Assembly: GCA_947259235.1 (NCBI GenBank)
Contig: CAMYLL010000034.1
Location: forward strand, 1-13,671
DNA: 13,671 bases
Source of the DNA: an uncultured Pseudodesulfovibrio sp.
GTDB lineage: Bacteria; Desulfobacterota; Desulfovibrionia; Desulfovibrionales; Desulfovibrionaceae
Direction: 5' to 3'
Shown: one piece after another, positions 441 to 10,120 of the stretch
How positions within the stretch are numbered: position 1 is the stretch's first letter
How the letters are laid out: the number at the start of each line of letters is the position of its first letter
Position numbers and translations under genes: made by a program
Notes under the pieces: model-generated
Databases searched by the model: none
What the model was told of the DNA's origin: nothing
What the model saw: only the letters and a program-made list of their open reading frames with translations

Positions 441-944
441 ATGATCAGAAGCGTCAGTGTTAAGAGCGCCGTCAAGGATGCCGTCGAAATATTCCAGTTT
501 GACCTGTGGCTGCGGTTCTACTTCGTCCAGAAGAAGAACGACGAGCTGTGGATCGAGATTCCCGACGAGGTCATGGCCCAGATCAAGGAAGATCATCCTG
601 CCCTGCACCGCCTCGCCGACCTCGTCAACGATGCGGTCATCGATTACAAGCGGGCCCAGGAAAACGTCTGCTCCTACGTTGGAGCGCGCCTGGACGGGCA
701 GAAATACGAGGCCACCGTCCTGCCCAAGGTCTTCGACAGTTCGGCCTTCAAGGTCGAAATGTACATTTTCAATCTCTGGATGAAGATGCACGAAAAATAT
801 CTGGAAGAGGACTACCTCAATTTCAACGAGTGGCTCGAAATGTACGACGGCTGGAACTCCCTCGACGAGGTCAAGGAGTACCGCGCCAAGCTGGTGGAAA
901 GCGGTACCGACCCCGCAACGCCCACCTGCACCACCACCCAGTAG
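441..944 (+). CDS. Conserved-looking hypothetical protein, 167 aa
   Basis: I do not recognise this family. The 167-residue product has no signal peptide or membrane segment. It is rich in aromatic and charged residues (FQFDLWLRFYFVQKK near the N-terminus; MYIFNLWMKMHEKYLEEDYL around residues 107-126) and ends in a Thr/Pro-rich tail with one Cys. It is probably a soluble, mainly helical cytoplasmic protein. The start at 441 is supported by GAGGA (429-433), 7 nt upstream, and by a good promoter at 377-405. The gene stands alone, ending just before a strong hairpin (963-1011) that it shares with a convergent gene. Codon usage looks like the neighbours, and a long antisense frame over it is a GC-rich shadow. 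No function is proposed. Confidence 0.82.
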   Translation: MIRSVSVKSAVKDAVEIFQFDLWLRFYFVQKKNDELWIEIPDEVMAQIKEDHPALHRLADLVNDAVIDYKRAQENVCSYVGARLDGQKYEATVLPKVFDSSAFKVEMYIFNLWMKMHEKYLEEDYLNFNEWLEMYDGWNSLDEVKEYRAKLVESGTDPATPTCTTTQ

Positions 945-1543: not shown

Positions 1544-2140
1544 TCAATGTCTCTGGCGCAGACCGTAATCAAGATACAGGCTGGACACGGCCTCGTCCAC
1601 AGCGCTGACGCCCCGGTCGTCTCCCGGCTCCACAAGCCCGACGAACTTGAGCATGCCGGTGCTGGTGTAGACAATATAGACTATCGTGGTCATTCGACCG
1701 CCGTTGACGGCGACTCCCTCCATTTCCAGACGCAGCATGTTCGTGCGTTCGCAAAAGCTCGCCCGGATCAGCTTCGGACATGACATTGCACTGCCCGCAG
1801 CCCGTCCCGGCTCCGCCCGCTTCAACCCTTTGACCACGAACCGGTTGAAGTTGCCAATGGTATCCTTGGACACGACCCGTCCGTGCAGCTTGGATACGAG
1901 CAGGCAGACCCGCGCCGGAGCGTCCAGCACATAGCCCGCCTCCCAGCCGTCCTCAAGGGCGGCCACCCCGTCCTGAAAGGGACTGAATCCTGACAATGCG
2001 ACCTCGGGCACTTCGGTCCAACCTCCGGGCAGCCAGATGGTATAGCCCAAGTCCTGATTGTAATACGGCAATGACGCAGACGCAGGGGACGGCAGAAGGA
2101 CGATGGCCGCAAGCATCACGGAGAAAAGTTGAAAGGGCAT
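1544..2140 (-). CDS. Exported protein with PsbP/Mog1-like N-terminal motif, 198 aa
   Basis: MPFQLFSVMLAAIVLLPSPASA (about residues 1-22) is a signal peptide. The mature protein opens with YYNQDLGYTIWLPGGW, where G-Y-x-I-x-x-P-x-G-W (residues 32-41) resembles the first strand and turn of PsbP/Mog1-like alpha/beta sandwich proteins; the assignment is tentative. Later segments, such as TTIVYIVYTSTGMLKFVGLVEPGDD, look like beta strands. Catalytic motifs are not visible. The frame is open to 2224, but the ATG at 2140 is chosen because it begins the signal peptide and has AGAGG (complement of 2147-2151) 6 nt upstream. It is transcribed away from the acylphosphatase-like gene and may share mRNA with the downstream exported protein. 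It probably acts in the periplasm; role unknown. Confidence 0.78.
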   Translation of the reverse strand: MPFQLFSVMLAAIVLLPSPASASLPYYNQDLGYTIWLPGGWTEVPEVALSGFSPFQDGVAALEDGWEAGYVLDAPARVCLLVSKLHGRVVSKDTIGNFNRFVVKGLKRAEPGRAAGSAMSCPKLIRASFCERTNMLRLEMEGVAVNGGRMTTIVYIVYTSTGMLKFVGLVEPGDDRGVSAVDEAVSSLYLDYGLRQRH

Positions 2141-2186
2141 TATAAACCTCTGCTTCACGGTTGCGAAGCAGTCAGAGCAGATTTTC

Positions 2187-2215
2187 ACGATACCCCGGAC
2201 CGGATGTGAAGGCAA
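2187..2215 (-). promoter_or_regulatory. Candidate sigma-70 promoter for the exported protein at 1544-2140
   Basis: On the minus strand TTGCCT (complement of 2210-2215) and TATCGT (complement of 2187-2192) are separated by 17 bp, ending about 46 nt before the ATG at 2140. Each box matches four of six consensus bases. It lies in the 212-bp divergent region shared with the acylphosphatase-like gene. Confidence 0.35.
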
Positions 2216-2284
2216 GCCCGCCATTTCCCCTGGCCGTCATGCCGGAGCATAAAGCCCGCACCGCACGCAATATCATGCAAGCCC

Positions 2285-2352: not shown

Positions 2353-2628
2353 ATGATGAAAAGCTACACCTGCATTGTTGAAGGCAAGGTCACCGGCGGC
2401 AACTTCCAGTCCTGGGTACTCGACGCCGCCCAGCTTCTCGGCCTCAAAGGCTGGGTGCGCAACATCGAAAACGGCAAGGCCGAGATACTCCTTCAGGGCG
2501 ACGCCCAGGCCTACGCCACGTTTCGCGAACGGCTGAACGCCGAGGCTCCTGTCCCCGACCTGAAGAATATCACATGTACCGTCATCGATTACGACAAGGT
2601 CCATGAACATTTCGAGGTGCGCGGCTAG
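2353..2628 (+). CDS. Acylphosphatase-like protein lacking the catalytic arginine, 91 aa
   Basis: At 91 residues it has the length and layout of acylphosphatases, which hydrolyse acyl phosphates. EGKVTGGNFQSWV (10-22) aligns with the phosphate loop and helix start (usually GxVQGVxFR), and LGLKGWVRNIENGKAEILLQG (29-49) aligns with the hallmark LGLxGWVxNxxDGxVExxxxG. Asn37, the water-binding residue, is kept, but the Arg after Phe that binds phosphate is Gln19, and the loop has T-G-G in place of Q-G-V. Classical activity is therefore doubtful; the protein may bind a ligand or have another role. Start: tandem ATG ATG at 2353 and 2356; GGGAG (2342-2346) gives 6 or 9 nt spacing, so either fits. The frame extends to 2161, but the extra N-terminus lacks homology. 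The next gene, 130 nt downstream on the same strand, is a sensor kinase. Confidence 0.85.
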   Translation: MMKSYTCIVEGKVTGGNFQSWVLDAAQLLGLKGWVRNIENGKAEILLQGDAQAYATFRERLNAEAPVPDLKNITCTVIDYDKVHEHFEVRG

Positions 2629-4189: not shown

Positions 4190-5556
4190 CCAACACGCAC
4201 ATCCCCACCATCCTCGTGGTTGACGACGACGAGAACATCCTTCAGGTGCTGGAGGCCAGACTCCTCTCCGCCGGGCTGAGCCCGCTCATGGCCGACAGCG
4301 CGGAGACCGCCATCGAGATGCTGGCCGGGGAGCCGGTGGATCTGGTCGTCTCCGACGTCAAAATGCCGGGCATGGGCGGCCACGGCCTGCTCAAGGAGAT
4401 TCTCGAACACTGGCCCCATATCCCGGTCATCATGCTCACGGCCCACGGAACCATCCCCGACGCCGTCGGATCCATCCAGGCCGGAGCCGCGGACTACCTG
4501 ACCAAGCCCTTTGACGGGAAGGAGCTGGTGCGCCGCATCCGGGCAATCCTCGAATCGAACCAGCCGGAAAGGGGCGTTGCCCCCGACGCACCGCCCCTGC
4601 CGACCACCACGGGCCTCTGGGGCGGTGAGGCCCCCGCCATGGCCCGGTTTCTTTCACTGCTCGAACGCGTCGCCAGGTCCACGGCCAACGTGCTGCTCTA
4701 CGGCGAATCGGGCACGGGCAAGGAGAAGGCCGCCCGCTACCTCCACGAGGCCAGCCCCAACAACGGCGGTCCCTTCGTGGTGTTGGACTGCGGCTCCACC
4801 CAGCCGACCCTGCTCGAAAGCGAACTGTTCGGCCACGTCAAGGGATCCTTCACCCACGCGGTCAAGGACAAGAAAGGACTCATAGAGGAAGCGGACGGAG
4901 GCACTCTTTTTCTGGATGAGATCGGAAACATCTCCCCGGAGATGCAGACCCGGCTGCTTCGCTTTCTCCAGGAGGGAACCATCCGACGGGTGGGTGACAC
5001 GCGGGAGCGACAGGTCCGCTGCCGGGTTGTGGCCGCCACCAACGCGGACCTGCCCGGAAAGGTCCGTACCGGGGACTTCCGCGAAGACCTCTACTACCGG
5101 CTCAAGGTGGTGACCCTGACCATCCCCCCCCTGCGAGACCGTGCGGAGGACATCCCCTTGCTGGCGCGACGGTTTGTCGACGCGTTGAGCAACGCGCAGG
5201 GACGTCCCGCGCCCGGCCTCTCGACACAGGCAATGAACCGGCTGACTAGCCACGCCTGGCCAGGCAACGTCCGGGAGCTCAAACACACCCTGGAGGCCGC
5301 CCTCGTCTTCTGCTCCGACAGCAAAATAGATGCGGCCGACCTGCAACTGGACCCCATGCCCGGCGCCCCCACCGATCCAACGCCCCGCGCACAAACACGT
5401 GCTCTGTCCCTCGACGAAAGCGAGCGGCTGGCGATCATCCAGGCCCTGGCCGCCAATGGCGGCGTGAAGAAGGACGCGGCCGATGCCCTGGGCATCAGCC
5501 GTCGGGCCATCCACTACAAGATTAAAAAATATGGTATCGGCGAAACCAACAACTGA
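4186..5556 (+). CDS. Sigma-54-dependent response regulator, NtrC family (GlrR/QseF-like layout)
   Basis: This 456-residue protein is the expected partner of the overlapping kinase gene (ATGA overlap; GGAG 8 nt before the start). Receiver domain about 8-122 with acidic pair near D13-D15, phospho-acceptor Asp57 (VVSDVKMPG), Thr85 and Lys108. AAA+ domain about 145-380 with Walker A GESGTGKE (173-180), Walker B GTLFLDEI (239-246), and the conserved FREDLYYRL and WPGNVREL segments. Fis-type helix-turn-helix about 411-452 (KKDAADALGISRRAIHYKIKK). Phosphorylation should allow it to activate RNA polymerase with sigma-54 from an upstream site. The sigma-54 contact loop, normally GAFTGA, reads GSFTHA (220-225): phenylalanine and threonine are kept, but the second glycine is His. 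No clear -24/-12 promoter was found in the window, so its targets are probably elsewhere. Confidence 0.95.
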   Translation: MTNTHIPTILVVDDDENILQVLEARLLSAGLSPLMADSAETAIEMLAGEPVDLVVSDVKMPGMGGHGLLKEILEHWPHIPVIMLTAHGTIPDAVGSIQAGAADYLTKPFDGKELVRRIRAILESNQPERGVAPDAPPLPTTTGLWGGEAPAMARFLSLLERVARSTANVLLYGESGTGKEKAARYLHEASPNNGGPFVVLDCGSTQPTLLESELFGHVKGSFTHAVKDKKGLIEEADGGTLFLDEIGNISPEMQTRLLRFLQEGTIRRVGDTRERQVRCRVVAATNADLPGKVRTGDFREDLYYRLKVVTLTIPPLRDRAEDIPLLARRFVDALSNAQGRPAPGLSTQAMNRLTSHAWPGNVRELKHTLEAALVFCSDSKIDAADLQLDPMPGAPTDPTPRAQTRALSLDESERLAIIQALAANGGVKKDAADALGISRRAIHYKIKKYGIGETNN

Positions 5557-5594
5557 TACCCGTTACTATTTTCATTTTTGACCCACCTACGGAC

Positions 5595-5622
5595 TTGCAA
5601 GAGGCTCGTCCGATAGTATAGA
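5595..5622 (+). promoter_or_regulatory. Sigma-70-type promoter for cheV
   Basis: TTGCAA (5595-5600) and TATAGA (5617-5622) are 16 bp apart, about 55 nt before the cheV start. Each box matches four or five of six consensus bases. It places cheV, and probably the DUF885-like gene behind it, in a transcription unit separate from the kinase/regulator pair. I see no -24/-12 sigma-54 motif here, so the upstream activator is not an obvious regulator of this promoter. Confidence 0.5.
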
Positions 5623-5676
5623 GATAGAGACTCGGCTTTTGCCGGGAATTGCGTGTATTTCAGGGGAGCATCAAAT

Positions 5677-6633
5677 ATGGCCGAAAGCAACATCCTGCTC
5701 GAATCCGGTACCAACGAGGTCGAGATCGTCGAGTTCTACCTCGACGAGCAGCGGACTGCAGGAGAATACCGCGGGTACTATGGCATCAACGTAGCCAAGG
5801 TGCTGGAGATTCTCCAGATGCCGGAGCTGACCGACATGCCGGAGGTGTCCCACCCGGCCGTGCTTGGCGCGTTCAACCTGCGCCAGGAGATCATCCCGCT
5901 CATCGACCTGGCTGGCTGGCTGGGCAAGAAGCGCAACGAAAAGGAACCGCCCAAGGTCATCGTCACCGAGTTCAATAGAACCAAGAGCGCCTTCCTCGTC
6001 TCCGGGGTGACGCGCATCCACCGCATCAACTGGAACGAGGTCGAGGCCCCCACGGGCTACGTTTCGTCCCTGACGGTCAACTCCATCACCGGCGTGGTCA
6101 AGTTCGCCAAGCGAATCGTCTTCATCCTGGACATGGAGAAGATCTGCATGGACCTCAACCCCGAGCCGCCGTTGATCCAGGAGCCGACCGAGGAGATTCG
6201 CCGGTCGATCAAGCAGCGGCAGATCAAGGCACTGGTGGCCGACGATTCCACCATGGCCCGCAAGATGATCACCGGCATCCTGGAAAAGGCGGGCTTTGTG
6301 GTCCATGCGGTGGAAAACGGCGAACAGGCCCGGCAATACATGATCCAATGCAACCGCAAGGCGCAGGAGAGGAACCTCCCGCTCCAGCAGTATGTGGACG
6401 TCATCGTCTCCGATATCGAGATGCCCATCATGGACGGCCACACGCTGACCCGCTCCCTCAAGGAAGACCCGGATTTCAGACCCATTCCCGTGGTTCTGTG
6501 CTCGTCGATCATCACGGAAACCCTCCACCACAAGGGAATCGCCGTAGGCGCGGACGAACAGGTGTCTAAGGCCGAACTCGGCGACCTCGTCCCGAAAATT
6601 TACGCCCTGCTTGAACAGGCCGTGCGCGCATAA
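5677..6633 (+). CDS. cheV: Chemotaxis coupling protein CheV (CheW-like domain plus receiver)
   Basis: CheV proteins link chemoreceptors to the kinase CheA, with coupling tuned by phosphorylation of the receiver. This 318-residue protein has a CheW-like domain about 15-165 (GINVAKVLEIL, VLGAFNLRQEIIPLIDLAGWLG, RIVFILDMEKI are typical core strands), a short linker about 166-183, and a receiver about 184-318 with acidic pair D189-D190 (VADDS) and phospho-acceptor Asp246 (VIVSDIEMPIMDG). Length and layout match the family. The start MAESNILLESG at 5677 has GGGGAG (5663-5668) 8 nt upstream; a frame extension to 5653 adds only eight residues before that site. No other chemotaxis gene is in the window, so this is an orphan cheV probably serving an array encoded elsewhere. 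The next gene follows after 34 nt and is probably cotranscribed. Confidence 0.95.
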   Translation: MAESNILLESGTNEVEIVEFYLDEQRTAGEYRGYYGINVAKVLEILQMPELTDMPEVSHPAVLGAFNLRQEIIPLIDLAGWLGKKRNEKEPPKVIVTEFNRTKSAFLVSGVTRIHRINWNEVEAPTGYVSSLTVNSITGVVKFAKRIVFILDMEKICMDLNPEPPLIQEPTEEIRRSIKQRQIKALVADDSTMARKMITGILEKAGFVVHAVENGEQARQYMIQCNRKAQERNLPLQQYVDVIVSDIEMPIMDGHTLTRSLKEDPDFRPIPVVLCSSIITETLHHKGIAVGADEQVSKAELGDLVPKIYALLEQAVRA

Positions 6634-6667
6634 GCGCCGCCAACCCCCACGAGATCGAACCCCCTCC

Positions 6668-8251
6668 ATGAAAATAAAATCCGCCGACAAGTTCTTTTCA
6701 TATCTCGGCAAGCAGTATCCCGTGATGTGCGCGTCCGGAGCCTTTCCTCTCATGCCGCCCGTCACCGCCTCGGCCCAGTGGCTGGACCGCTTCGACGATC
6801 TCTCCCGCAAAGGCATCGCCAAGCACGTCACCCGCCTCTCCTCCTTCAAGAAGGAGTTTGAGAGCGAGGCTGCGCGGGCCGACGCCCCGGAGCGGTGGGC
6901 CCTGCTCGCCCTGGCCCGCAGCGCCGCCTGCGCCATCGCCGAGCTGGACGGCATCAGAACCTGGGAAAAAGCGCCTGAGCTGTACCTTCAGGTAGCCTTC
7001 AGCGGCCTGGAGCAGGCCGTGGACATGCCGAGCAAGACGCAGTCCGCCCTGGAAAAACGCTTCATCAAGCGACTCAAGGCAATCCCGGCCCTGCTGGCCC
7101 ACGCCCCGAACAACATCGAGACCATCAGCCCCACCTCGCGCGCCTTTACGCAGACCATGATCCGTGACTGCGCACGCTACCTGACCGGGCTGGGCGAGAG
7201 CGACCTGGGACGCACAGGCAAGACCCCGCGTCTTCTGAACGACTGTCTGGCCGCCCTGCGGGACTACGACCGCTTTGTCGCATCCCATCCCGAGGTCCCG
7301 GAGACCGAGGGTATGTCATTTAACCTCATGGCCTCCGGCGTGCTGGGCACTGACCGCTCCGCTGCCGAGATTTTTTCCATGGCCCGGGACGAGTTCGCCC
7401 GCCGCAGCGAGGCCCTGCGCCGCCTTGAGCCGGAGCTGGGGGCCAACTGGCGAGACGCGCTGGCCGCCTATGACGGCCCGGCGGAGAAAGACGCCGAGCC
7501 CCTCGACGCCGTAGTTCGCGAGATTCACCGCCTACGCGCCTTCGTATACGATACAGCCCTGCCCGGCGTGTTCGCGGACGCCGCCCTGCGCATTGATCCG
7601 CAGCCACTCCACCTGGCGTCCACGCTGCGCCCCATCCATTACGACCCGGCCCTGGGCGCCTGGCCCAACGAGCCTTCCCGTTGCTACGTGAGCCCGCAGA
7701 TGTTCACCGGGCGCGGTTTCCGGGACGATCCGTCCAGGCTCGCCCGGATGCGCCGGGAGTATGTCTTCATGACAGCCCGTCAGACCTATCCGGGCCGCCA
7801 TCTGCTCAACTCGCAACGGCGGACCCTGACCGATTCGCCTCTCTCGCAGGTCATCAACCCGCTGTTCATGGCGGGCTGGAACGCCTTTGCCGAGAATCTG
7901 CTCGACGAGCTGGGCTATCTCAAAAATCCATTGGACCGCCTTGTCCATCACCGGCGCGGACTCAGCGAGGCGGCCATGGCCATGATCGACGCAGGGCTTG
8001 CCGTGGGCGACCTGGACCAGGACCGCTGCATCGCCATCCTCGCGGACGCGGGATTTTCCAAAGACGAATCGCTGAACAGGATTCGCGCCGTGCGCCTCGC
8101 CCCTGCCAGCCGGGTCATGTCCGTCCTCGGGCTGCACGAGATACAGACGCTGCGACAGGATTCGGGCATGGAGCTTGGCGCGTTCTGCACCGCCCTCTTC
8201 GCCAACGGCCAGCTCCCCTTCCAGGCCCTGACCGAAGCCATCAAGGCCTGA
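6668..8251 (+). CDS. DUF885-family protein with lost metal-binding residues (probable pseudopeptidase)
   Basis: This 527-residue protein resembles DUF885 proteins, a family of zinc-peptidase-like enzymes, best in its C-terminal half. The metal-site region, usually H-E-x-x-P-G-H-H, reads RQTYPGRH (371-378): His, Glu and the next His become Arg, Gln and Arg. The later E-G-W-A-x-x-A-E segment is AGWNAFAE (402-409), losing the third ligand Glu. The D-T-G-L-H segment is DAGLA (441-445). The scaffold persists in the P-G-Q-A-x-x-Y-x-x-G counterpart APASRVMSVLG. Peptidase activity is therefore unlikely; a binding or scaffold role is inferred. No signal peptide or membrane segment is visible. The start MKIKSADKFF at 6668 is preferred over 6611, which overlaps cheV, although no Shine-Dalgarno is visible. 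It ends before a strong terminator. The frame is intact, so this is not a decaying gene. Confidence 0.75.
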   Translation: MKIKSADKFFSYLGKQYPVMCASGAFPLMPPVTASAQWLDRFDDLSRKGIAKHVTRLSSFKKEFESEAARADAPERWALLALARSAACAIAELDGIRTWEKAPELYLQVAFSGLEQAVDMPSKTQSALEKRFIKRLKAIPALLAHAPNNIETISPTSRAFTQTMIRDCARYLTGLGESDLGRTGKTPRLLNDCLAALRDYDRFVASHPEVPETEGMSFNLMASGVLGTDRSAAEIFSMARDEFARRSEALRRLEPELGANWRDALAAYDGPAEKDAEPLDAVVREIHRLRAFVYDTALPGVFADAALRIDPQPLHLASTLRPIHYDPALGAWPNEPSRCYVSPQMFTGRGFRDDPSRLARMRREYVFMTARQTYPGRHLLNSQRRTLTDSPLSQVINPLFMAGWNAFAENLLDELGYLKNPLDRLVHHRRGLSEAAMAMIDAGLAVGDLDQDRCIAILADAGFSKDESLNRIRAVRLAPASRVMSVLGLHEIQTLRQDSGMELGAFCTALFANGQLPFQALTEAIKA

Positions 8252-8299
8252 TCGCCCGGCTCGGGCACGCTCCCCTGCAACACCAGGCCAGGACGGGCA

Positions 8300-8348
8300 C
8301 GAAAAGAACACCCCCGCGCCAGAGTGTGGCGCGGGGGTGTCCTTTTCG
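8300..8348. terminator. Bidirectional hairpin terminator between convergent genes
   Basis: Arms at 8308-8321 and 8327-8340 pair perfectly over 14 bp (ACACCCCCGCGCCA) with a 5-nt loop. After one mismatch the stem extends 7 bp (8300-8306 with 8342-8348), which gives a TTTT run on each strand. It lies between the DUF885-like gene ending at 8251 (+) and the HD-GYP gene ending at 8390 (-), and probably stops both. Confidence 0.88.
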
Positions 8349-8389
8349 TCTCGGCGCGGAGGGCGTTCCCTCGGCGCAGCCTGCCTGAC

Positions 8390-10120
8390 TCAGCCGAAAC
8401 GGCCTATCTCCGAAAGATGGGTGACCCGGACCAGCTTGACACGGCCGGAGAAAAGCTCGACCTGGGAAAGATTCTCGCGGAAGAAATCGACCAGGGGCCT
8501 GTCGAGCTTGCCCTGCGCAGCCTCGGCGTCGAGTATCTTGATGGCCTCGGCGCGTGTGAAGGCGGGCTTGTAGTGTCGCTCCTGGGTCACTGCGTCATAG
8601 ATGTCGACTATGGCCATGATACGGCTCTGCACCAGGATTTCGTCGCCCTTGAGCTTGTCCGGGTAGCCGCTTCCGTCCATGCGCTCATGGTGCTGCCTGA
8701 TGATGGCCAGCATGTTGGCGTAGCCTTCCTGCAGGGGAATGTGCTGGAGAATGCGCTCGCTTTCGGCCGGATGTCTCTCGATCTCCTTGCGTTCGTCCCT
8801 GGTCAGGTTGCCGTAGGTCAGGAGCAGCGCGTCGAGTTCATCCTCGTAGAGCAGGGGCATCGGTGCTCCGCCAACGGCCCAGTCCTGACTCCCCAGTATC
8901 CTGACAAACTCAAGGTCCTCGCTGCCGGGGGTCATGGAGCGGTTGATCCTTTCGATCCGCTCGAAGGCCTCGACCCAGTCGAATTCCGAGGTCTGGCCAT
9001 GGAGCTGGAACCTGGCCCGGAGCACGTCCATGCGCCGCGCCGGGAGCCGGGAGTCCTTGGTCAGCACGTCTTCCTTGATGCCTATCTTGCCTACGTCGTG
9101 CAGAATTCCGGCATAATAAATCTCGCGCAGGTCAAGGTCGGAAAAACAGGCTCCCTGCTTTTCGTTGAGCAGGTGGGCAAAGGCCACGGCCAGATGGGCC
9201 ACGCGCTCGGAATGGCCTGCGGTATAGGGGTCCCGGGAGTCGATGGCTTCCGCAAGTGCCTTGAGGATGGCGTTCATGAGCGTCTGCACGCCTTCGAAGT
9301 GAAAGGCATTGCTCACGGAAATGCCGGCAACAGAAGCCAGGGTTGCCAAGCTCTTGCTGTGGGCCGCCTCGAAAATGCCCGTGCTGTCCGAGGCCAGGAT
9401 GAGCATGCCCTCGCACCGGTTGGGCGACATGATGGGAATGATGGCCATGGAGCCGAGCTGTTCCAGTTCACCGCCCCAGCGGCTGTCCTTGTCCAGATCA
9501 TTGACGATCTCACCGCGCCCGGCATGGGCGACCTGGGCAAAGAGCTCGCTATCGGCGACTAGCTGGAGATCGCTGTCCTCTGAAAAACCGAACTGGACGG
9601 CCAGACGGAAGCGGTTGCTGCCCGGCTCGGAAAGAAAAACCATACCGAACTCGCCGGGATAGTTCTCGCGGCGACACTCGTTGATGAAGGCATCCACCAC
9701 GTCGCGCATGCGCAAAGACGTGTTGATGACCGGAACCGAACGATGGAGCAATGCCAGCTCCCGGTACTTCGAGAGGGCTTCCTCGGCGATGGAACGGCGG
9801 GCGCGCTCCATGTCTATCAGCTCCTGGATGGAAAAGGCGACAAAGGCAAGCAGCCGGTTGTTCTGCTCTGCGGCTTCCGGCTTGGTCTCGGGAACGCGCA
9901 TTCGCACCTCGCCGCAGTGCCCCGCGTCAAACAGGAGTGGCGAGCAGAAGACATCGGGCCGCTCCGTCTCGAAATTGGACAGGGACTCCGTTCCCTCCAC
10001 CAGCACCACCTCGCCCTCGTAGGCGATGGCTATGGGACAAGCGCTCCCCGTAAGCTCGAAGGCCTTGCGCAGAAGATTGCGCAGGGCTCCGGGGCGAATG
10101 TACTTTTTAAGCGGCGTCAT
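8390..10120 (-). CDS. GAF-HD-GYP protein, probable cyclic-di-GMP phosphodiesterase
   Basis: This 576-residue soluble protein should hydrolyse cyclic-di-GMP. Layout: an N-terminal region 1-105 of uncertain fold (a small sensor domain), a helical linker about 100-130, a GAF domain about 130-275, and an HD-GYP domain about 283-560. Metal-binding and family motifs are present: His303 (AGHSERV), HD at 341-342 (GILHDVGKIGI), HHERMDGSGYP at 477-487 and D507/D509 in AIVDIYDAV. About 80 extra residues (roughly 358-438) split the usual stretch between KIGI and the LTxxE helix; I recall similar insertions in deltaproteobacterial HD-GYP proteins. An in-frame stop lies about 30 nt upstream, so ATG 10120 is the first possible start, yet it has no clear Shine-Dalgarno. 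It lies 36 nt behind the single-receiver gene and likely shares its mRNA. A long antisense frame over it is a shadow. Confidence 0.93.
   Translation of the reverse strand: MTPLKKYIRPGALRNLLRKAFELTGSACPIAIAYEGEVVLVEGTESLSNFETERPDVFCSPLLFDAGHCGEVRMRVPETKPEAAEQNNRLLAFVAFSIQELIDMERARRSIAEEALSKYRELALLHRSVPVINTSLRMRDVVDAFINECRRENYPGEFGMVFLSEPGSNRFRLAVQFGFSEDSDLQLVADSELFAQVAHAGRGEIVNDLDKDSRWGGELEQLGSMAIIPIMSPNRCEGMLILASDSTGIFEAAHSKSLATLASVAGISVSNAFHFEGVQTLMNAILKALAEAIDSRDPYTAGHSERVAHLAVAFAHLLNEKQGACFSDLDLREIYYAGILHDVGKIGIKEDVLTKDSRLPARRMDVLRARFQLHGQTSEFDWVEAFERIERINRSMTPGSEDLEFVRILGSQDWAVGGAPMPLLYEDELDALLLTYGNLTRDERKEIERHPAESERILQHIPLQEGYANMLAIIRQHHERMDGSGYPDKLKGDEILVQSRIMAIVDIYDAVTQERHYKPAFTRAEAIKILDAEAAQGKLDRPLVDFFRENLSQVELFSGRVKLVRVTHLSEIGRFG

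Follow-up and report, generated by a model that had tools for sequence, protein, structure and literature searches.

Why would a bacterial genus keep an open peptidase-family gene in which the residues expected to hold the catalytic metal have been replaced? The question is raised by a stretch of 13,671 nucleotides from an uncultured Pseudodesulfovibrio sp. (GenBank assembly GCA_947259235.1, contig CAMYLL010000034.1, forward strand), here called the window, which contains the following gene.

6668 to 8251, plus strand: protein of 527 amino acids that has the DUF885 fold and lacks the metal site, the subject of this analysis (open reading frame and PF05960 match)

We establish that this DUF885-derived protein lacks the metal constellation, is constrained, and occupies a fixed place beside cheV across the genus. 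A first-pass annotation made from the sequence had claimed an intact frame of 527 codons and DUF885 ancestry, and both claims are borne out. The frame reads unbroken from 6668 to 8251, and the PF05960 (DUF885) profile recommended as a check scores 111.4 bits (E 1.2e-31), above the curated family cut-off of 32.4 bits, with residues 40-525 aligned to profile positions 14-532. The protein is the only DUF885 match in its draft genome (2.93 Mb, 82.8% complete), and its closest named relatives are from Pseudodesulfovibrio (P. pelocollis, 72%, and others).

The predicted structure also upholds DUF885 ancestry. AlphaFold2 models were obtained for the window protein (predicted local distance difference test [pLDDT] 93.7, predicted template modeling score [pTM] 0.92) and for an intact relative, P0092 (pLDDT 93.0, pTM 0.92); labels beginning with G, L and P denote the genomes, loci and protein-database rows of our comparison sets. 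The best structural matches of the window model were the solved DUF885 members 3u24, 3o0y and 3iuk (scores 30.1, 28.8 and 27.8), and those of P0092 were the same three (3o0y 30.9, 3u24 29.5, 3iuk 27.7). For both models the next matches were M32 carboxypeptidases, at 11-13. The window protein is thus predicted to share the fold of the solved members. A plain sequence search of the PDB gave weak matches at best (E 0.038); with a profile built from 66 sequences, of which seven belong to the genus and the others are intact, E fell to 6.5e-37.

Where the family motif H-E-x-x-P-G-H is expected, the window protein reads R371-Q-T-Y-P-G-R377-H, followed by A402-G-W-N-A-F-A-E409. We compared these positions with intact relatives collected by searching with the DUF885 protein of G091 (locus L030), from another family of the order. 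All comparisons with intact relatives refer to the best 120 of 1255 homologues, a set that includes the query's own protein.

7778 to 7783, plus strand: codons of R371 and Q372, which stand where H-E-x-x-P-G-H has its first His and its Glu (H and E, respectively, in all 120 intact relatives)
7796 to 7801, plus strand: codons of R377, at the second motif His, and of the retained H378 (377 is H in 120 of 120)
7871 to 7873, plus strand: codon of A402, at the Glu of E-G-W (E in 120 of 120)
7892 to 7894, plus strand: codon of E409, a retained Glu (E in 120 of 120, and in 36 of 36 genus genomes)

Positions 371, 372, 377 and 402 are therefore H, E, H and E in every aligned intact relative, and G376, G403, W404 and E409 are likewise present in 120/120. 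In their alignments, the solved structures 3u24, 3o0y and 3iuk all read H-E-x-x-P-G-H and E-G-W. Together, the invariance in the intact set and the three structures indicate that the right positions were compared and that the departure is not due to chance. A misaligned motif is ruled out because the columns are fixed by the 120 relatives, and the initial reading of R-Q-T-Y-P-G-R in place of H-E-x-x-P-G-H, with Ala for the later Glu, is correct. Residue 378 varies among intact relatives (H in 86/120), so H378 is not a general ligand. We also rejected E409 as a replacement third ligand that would rescue the metal site, because both His are already gone.

We infer that these positions bind zinc from their conservation and from the ligand spacing of related peptidases. 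The assignment draws as well on a zinc site of two His and one Glu that others predicted for another DUF885 model, as given in the available portion of PMC12572635. Neither part of the signature of an active metallopeptidase is found: H371 and H377 occur in 0/36 genus genomes compared to 120/120 intact relatives, and the third-ligand Glu of E-G-W, which is A402 here, is present in 1/36.

How widely is this departure shared? A search of 98 genomes with the window protein found an orthologue in all 35 same-genus genomes besides its own, and genus counts refer to these 36. Outside the genus there were good matches in G056 and G091 and a weak match in G082. Residue 371 is R in 15 genus genomes, A in 8, M in 6, Q and G in 2 each, and T, S and C in 1 each; residue 372 is Q in 29, E in 4, L in 2 and Y in 1; residue 377 is R in 31, S in 4 and L in 1; and residue 402 is A in 29, H and W in 2 each, and E, N and G in 1 each. 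Conservation of the rewritten residues across the clade, a check that the first-pass annotation had proposed, thus holds at 372 (29/36) and 377 (31/36) and largely at 402 (29/36), and fails at 371. They are a clade signature only in part, since 371 drifts and early branches have S377 or E372. The protein database supplied 89 rows, with the remote P0090 set aside; 85 passed a crude motif-region filter and four fragments were dropped. None of the 85, among which P0081 and P0084 appear frame-shifted past the motif region, has H at 371 or 377. In G019, a second, partial DUF885 match (contig 276, bases 6-518; residues 357-527, 72% identity) accompanies the full one on contig 214, and could be a duplicate, a strain mixture or an assembly effect.

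In a tree of 76 sequences, for which the displayed root is arbitrary, the genus members cluster together without exception (support 100, branch 0.66). The deepest branches of this group read Q-E-S, R-E-R or C-E-R, G-L-S, and R-Y-L at 371, 372 and 377. Both metal His are lost in every member, and E372 remains in four. Locus L029 of G056, from the same family, joins next to the genus group (support 98), and its DUF885 protein is partly changed, with H-D-T-Y-P-G-H and E402 in E-G-W. The L029 gene, from about 6816 on the plus strand, belongs to a different genus of the family and immediately follows a hybrid histidine kinase gene. It is possibly a transitional form, likewise beside a signaling gene. 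Positions conserved in at least 98% of the intact relatives number 120 (65 polar, 55 non-polar). Scored in 35 genus rows, 32/65 polar positions are lost versus 10/55 non-polar ones (Fisher p = 5e-4), and this polar bias indicates that the change reaches past the metal positions. The lost near-invariant residues include Y481, Y485, R437, W433, R320 and H507.

DUF885 is rare around the genus. Matches were found in 38/247 family genomes, and the only ones outside the genus were G056 and G145, the latter below the cut-off. Among 247 genomes sampled from the phylum, a DUF885 relative occurs in 16 apart from the window's own; the motif can be read in 14 of them, and H, E, H and E are retained in every one of these 14. 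Within roughly 1.5 kb of fetched flank, neither cheV nor HD-GYP of the window has a match at any of the 16. At locus L106 of G295 (4760-8661, minus strand), an intact DUF885 gene adjoins an open reading frame of 461 amino acids without a Pfam match and one with a methyltransferase domain, surroundings that may hint at the ancestral context of the enzyme.

The DUF885 gene of the window has the following neighbors.

5653 to 6633, plus strand: fusion of CheW and a response regulator (CheV type), directly upstream with a gap of 34 nt, probably co-transcribed (Pfam CheW 7.1e-31, Response_reg 8.9e-17)
8308 to 8340, plus strand: terminator-like hairpin between the convergent genes, identified solely by consensus scanning (9 sites of this kind in the region versus 2.6 expected)
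8390 to 10120, minus strand: GAF/HD-GYP-type protein, convergent with the DUF885 gene (Pfam HD_5 8.7e-35, GAF_2 1.3e-07)

The CheV-type gene lies immediately 5' on the same strand in 35/35 loci with flank, at gaps between -4 and 34 nt wherever the start could be placed (all loci but L032), and the HD-GYP gene is convergent downstream in 35/35, at a spacing of 41-227 nt in 33; each side lacks one contig-end locus (L039, L005). About 2.5 kb separates the DUF885 and HD-GYP genes in L022. In L032 (G011), the HD-GYP gene, from about 4620, is broken in two, and it is the more distant fragment that matches best. In G041, G043 and G044, from three further genera of the family, an HD-GYP relative and a response regulator occur while DUF885 is absent, and no cheV match was found beside these genes, so the cheV-DUF885 arrangement looks genus-specific. 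Elsewhere in the window, two proteins without a Pfam match (441-944, plus strand; 1544-2224, minus strand) have relatives that keep this gene order at several genus loci.

We consider it somewhat probable that the protein is a pseudopeptidase, a DUF885 fold with its metal site lost, that has been reused beyond peptide cutting as a partner of the CheV-type protein. It would be a gluzincin-like DUF885 fold, related to DUF885 proteins that bear a zinc site; both metal His are lost in every genus member examined, and Q372 and R377 are fixed in most lineages. Judging from the sequence, the protein very likely carries out no metal-dependent peptide hydrolysis. Its remodeled cleft may instead bind a ligand or protein partner, and, as one subunit of a chemosensory or two-component circuit, the protein may respond to ligands or provide a scaffold together with the CheW-REC protein, whose gene is probably co-transcribed. 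The part assigned to it here, as a binding or scaffolding partner in CheV signaling, is a tentative guess from linkage.

Several observations weigh against this proposal. H378 and E409, sequence neighbors of the old site, are kept in 36/36 genus genomes. Moreover, the main clade, which comprises 83 rows including two that are frame-broken, has gained conserved residues at three positions, and these make another site conceivable.

7637 to 7639, plus strand: codon of H324, new in the main clade (82/83, versus S in 120/120 intact relatives)
7682 to 7684, plus strand: codon of C339, new in the main clade (83/83, versus F in 120/120)
8186 to 8188, plus strand: codon of C507, which replaces a conserved His (80/83, versus H in 119/120)

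H287, D280 and R377 are fixed in the same clade (83/83 each). Another metal site could have been rebuilt in the same cleft, for example from H324, C339 and C507 with the retained H378 or E409, leaving a metalloprotein with other chemistry. Consistent with this, the three new residues are absent at these positions from intact relatives, and the model places 324 and 339 on two short strands that follow one another (E323-326 and E337-341). However, the early branches L022-L028, which have also lost the metal His, mostly lack the three residues: position 324 is Q, H, H, F, F, R and L, 339 is C and then six L, and 507 is five C and two R. These residues are thus not a general replacement, and we regard a rebuilt site as unlikely. 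Slightly less likely again is a metal-independent hydrolase or transferase that uses Q372 and R377 with E409. Q372 and R377 are conserved in most of the clade, and E409 is retained both there and in intact relatives, but other polar residues that are near-invariant in the intact set (Y481, Y485, H507, R437 and W433) are lost as well.

Is the gene simply decaying? By the Nei-Gojobori method, the median ratio of nonsynonymous to synonymous substitution (dN/dS) of the DUF885 gene is 0.415 across the 195 usable pairs (0.05<dS<1.3) and the maximum 0.75, so that every pair stays below 1; the ratio is 0.06-0.26 in the five pairs with the lowest dS. The medians for cheV (287 pairs) and HD-GYP (191 pairs) are both 0.283. 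The gene is constrained, yet less so than its neighbors, and this counts among the contrary points, as does the orthologue in G032 (locus L031, around 6563-8148), which is split into two pieces that lie in different frames, through either a real break or a sequencing error. A gene under relaxed selection or in decay, kept only through its neighbors, would account for the faster evolution, the broken frame, the variability of position 371, and the divergent members, which share 34-40% (three genome pairs) and 49% identity. We find this very improbable, given that the other copies (35/36 genomes) are open up to contig ends, no usable pair reaches a dN/dS of 1, new residues have been fixed (R377 in 31/36 genomes, C339 throughout the main clade), and the fold is predicted with high confidence. 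The first-pass annotation had argued for selection rather than decay, and it is supported by the presence of the gene in all 36 genus genomes at a fixed position, together with the constraint and the residues fixed in the main clade. On sequence, model and constraint, the protein would qualify as a pseudoenzyme, in which catalytic residues are lost while the fold and gene are kept by selection.

The remaining contrary points concern CheV, to which the only tie is gene linkage. The entire gene block is syntenic within the genus, and any gene inside it would therefore appear linked. The protein may well be a pseudopeptidase whose function is unrelated to CheV or HD-GYP, with the linkage reflecting inherited gene order, a possibility that we rate on a par with the proposed CheV role. 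Against it stand the very short or overlapping cheV junction in every locus with flank, the preservation of that junction in L022 despite the distance to HD-GYP, and the occurrence of HD-GYP with a response regulator, without DUF885 or an adjoining cheV match, in G041, G043 and G044.

A second candidate pseudoenzyme lies in the same window.

2353 to 2628, plus strand: acylphosphatase-family protein (PF00708, 2e-17)

The position expected for the catalytic Arg is Gln in 69/69 homologues found of this protein and Arg in 30/30 other acylphosphatases of the order, including four distinct paralogues from within the genus; both counts lean, since homologues were picked by shared words and the comparison genes were top-scoring. 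Among 23 loci scanned, 13 have an acylphosphatase-family gene in the same block, and Gln is present in all 12 that are readable. Two apparently dead enzymes within one signaling island are the most interesting extension of our finding. We speculate, doubtfully, that the signaling island of this genus made a DUF885 peptidase and an acylphosphatase non-catalytic, as subunits sensing ligands or phosphoryl states for CheV, a histidine kinase with an NtrC-type regulator, and an HD-GYP cyclic di-GMP enzyme.

Pseudoenzymes are already a known kind, and pseudopeptidases have mostly been described from animals and plants. A DUF885 protein without a metal site, encoded in every searched genome of the genus and always sharing a probable operon with a chemotaxis adaptor, offers a tractable case for non-catalytic peptidase folds in bacterial signaling, with intact DUF885 relatives as controls. 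If our proposal is true, the names "DUF885 family protein" and "acylphosphatase" imply the wrong chemistry here. In the available portions of the literature found on DUF885/PF05960, bacterial zinc pseudoproteases and Pseudodesulfovibrio CheV (including PMC12572635, PMC8478523 and PMC11266112), we encountered no description of the window protein, no DUF885-fold partner of CheV, and no established function for DUF885.

Compared to the solved DUF885 proteins 3u24, 3o0y and 3iuk, with H-E-x-x-P-G-H and E-G-W, the window protein has R-Q-T-Y-P-G-R and A-G-W. Unlike the M32 carboxypeptidases, M3 oligopeptidases and M2 ACE-like peptidases of Peptidase_MA, to which its identity is 6-11% among the matches listed, it has neither an HExxH-type motif nor the third Glu. 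The gene upstream has the same domain pair as CheV, the CheW-REC adaptor. According to the available portion of a review, pseudometallopeptidases are inactive homologues retained for binding or scaffolding (PMC11266112), and the window protein would resemble them in this respect; the terms "DUF" and "M32" are absent from the main text of that review. It differs from the cases in that portion of the review in that it occurs in every searched genome of a bacterial genus, beside cheV.
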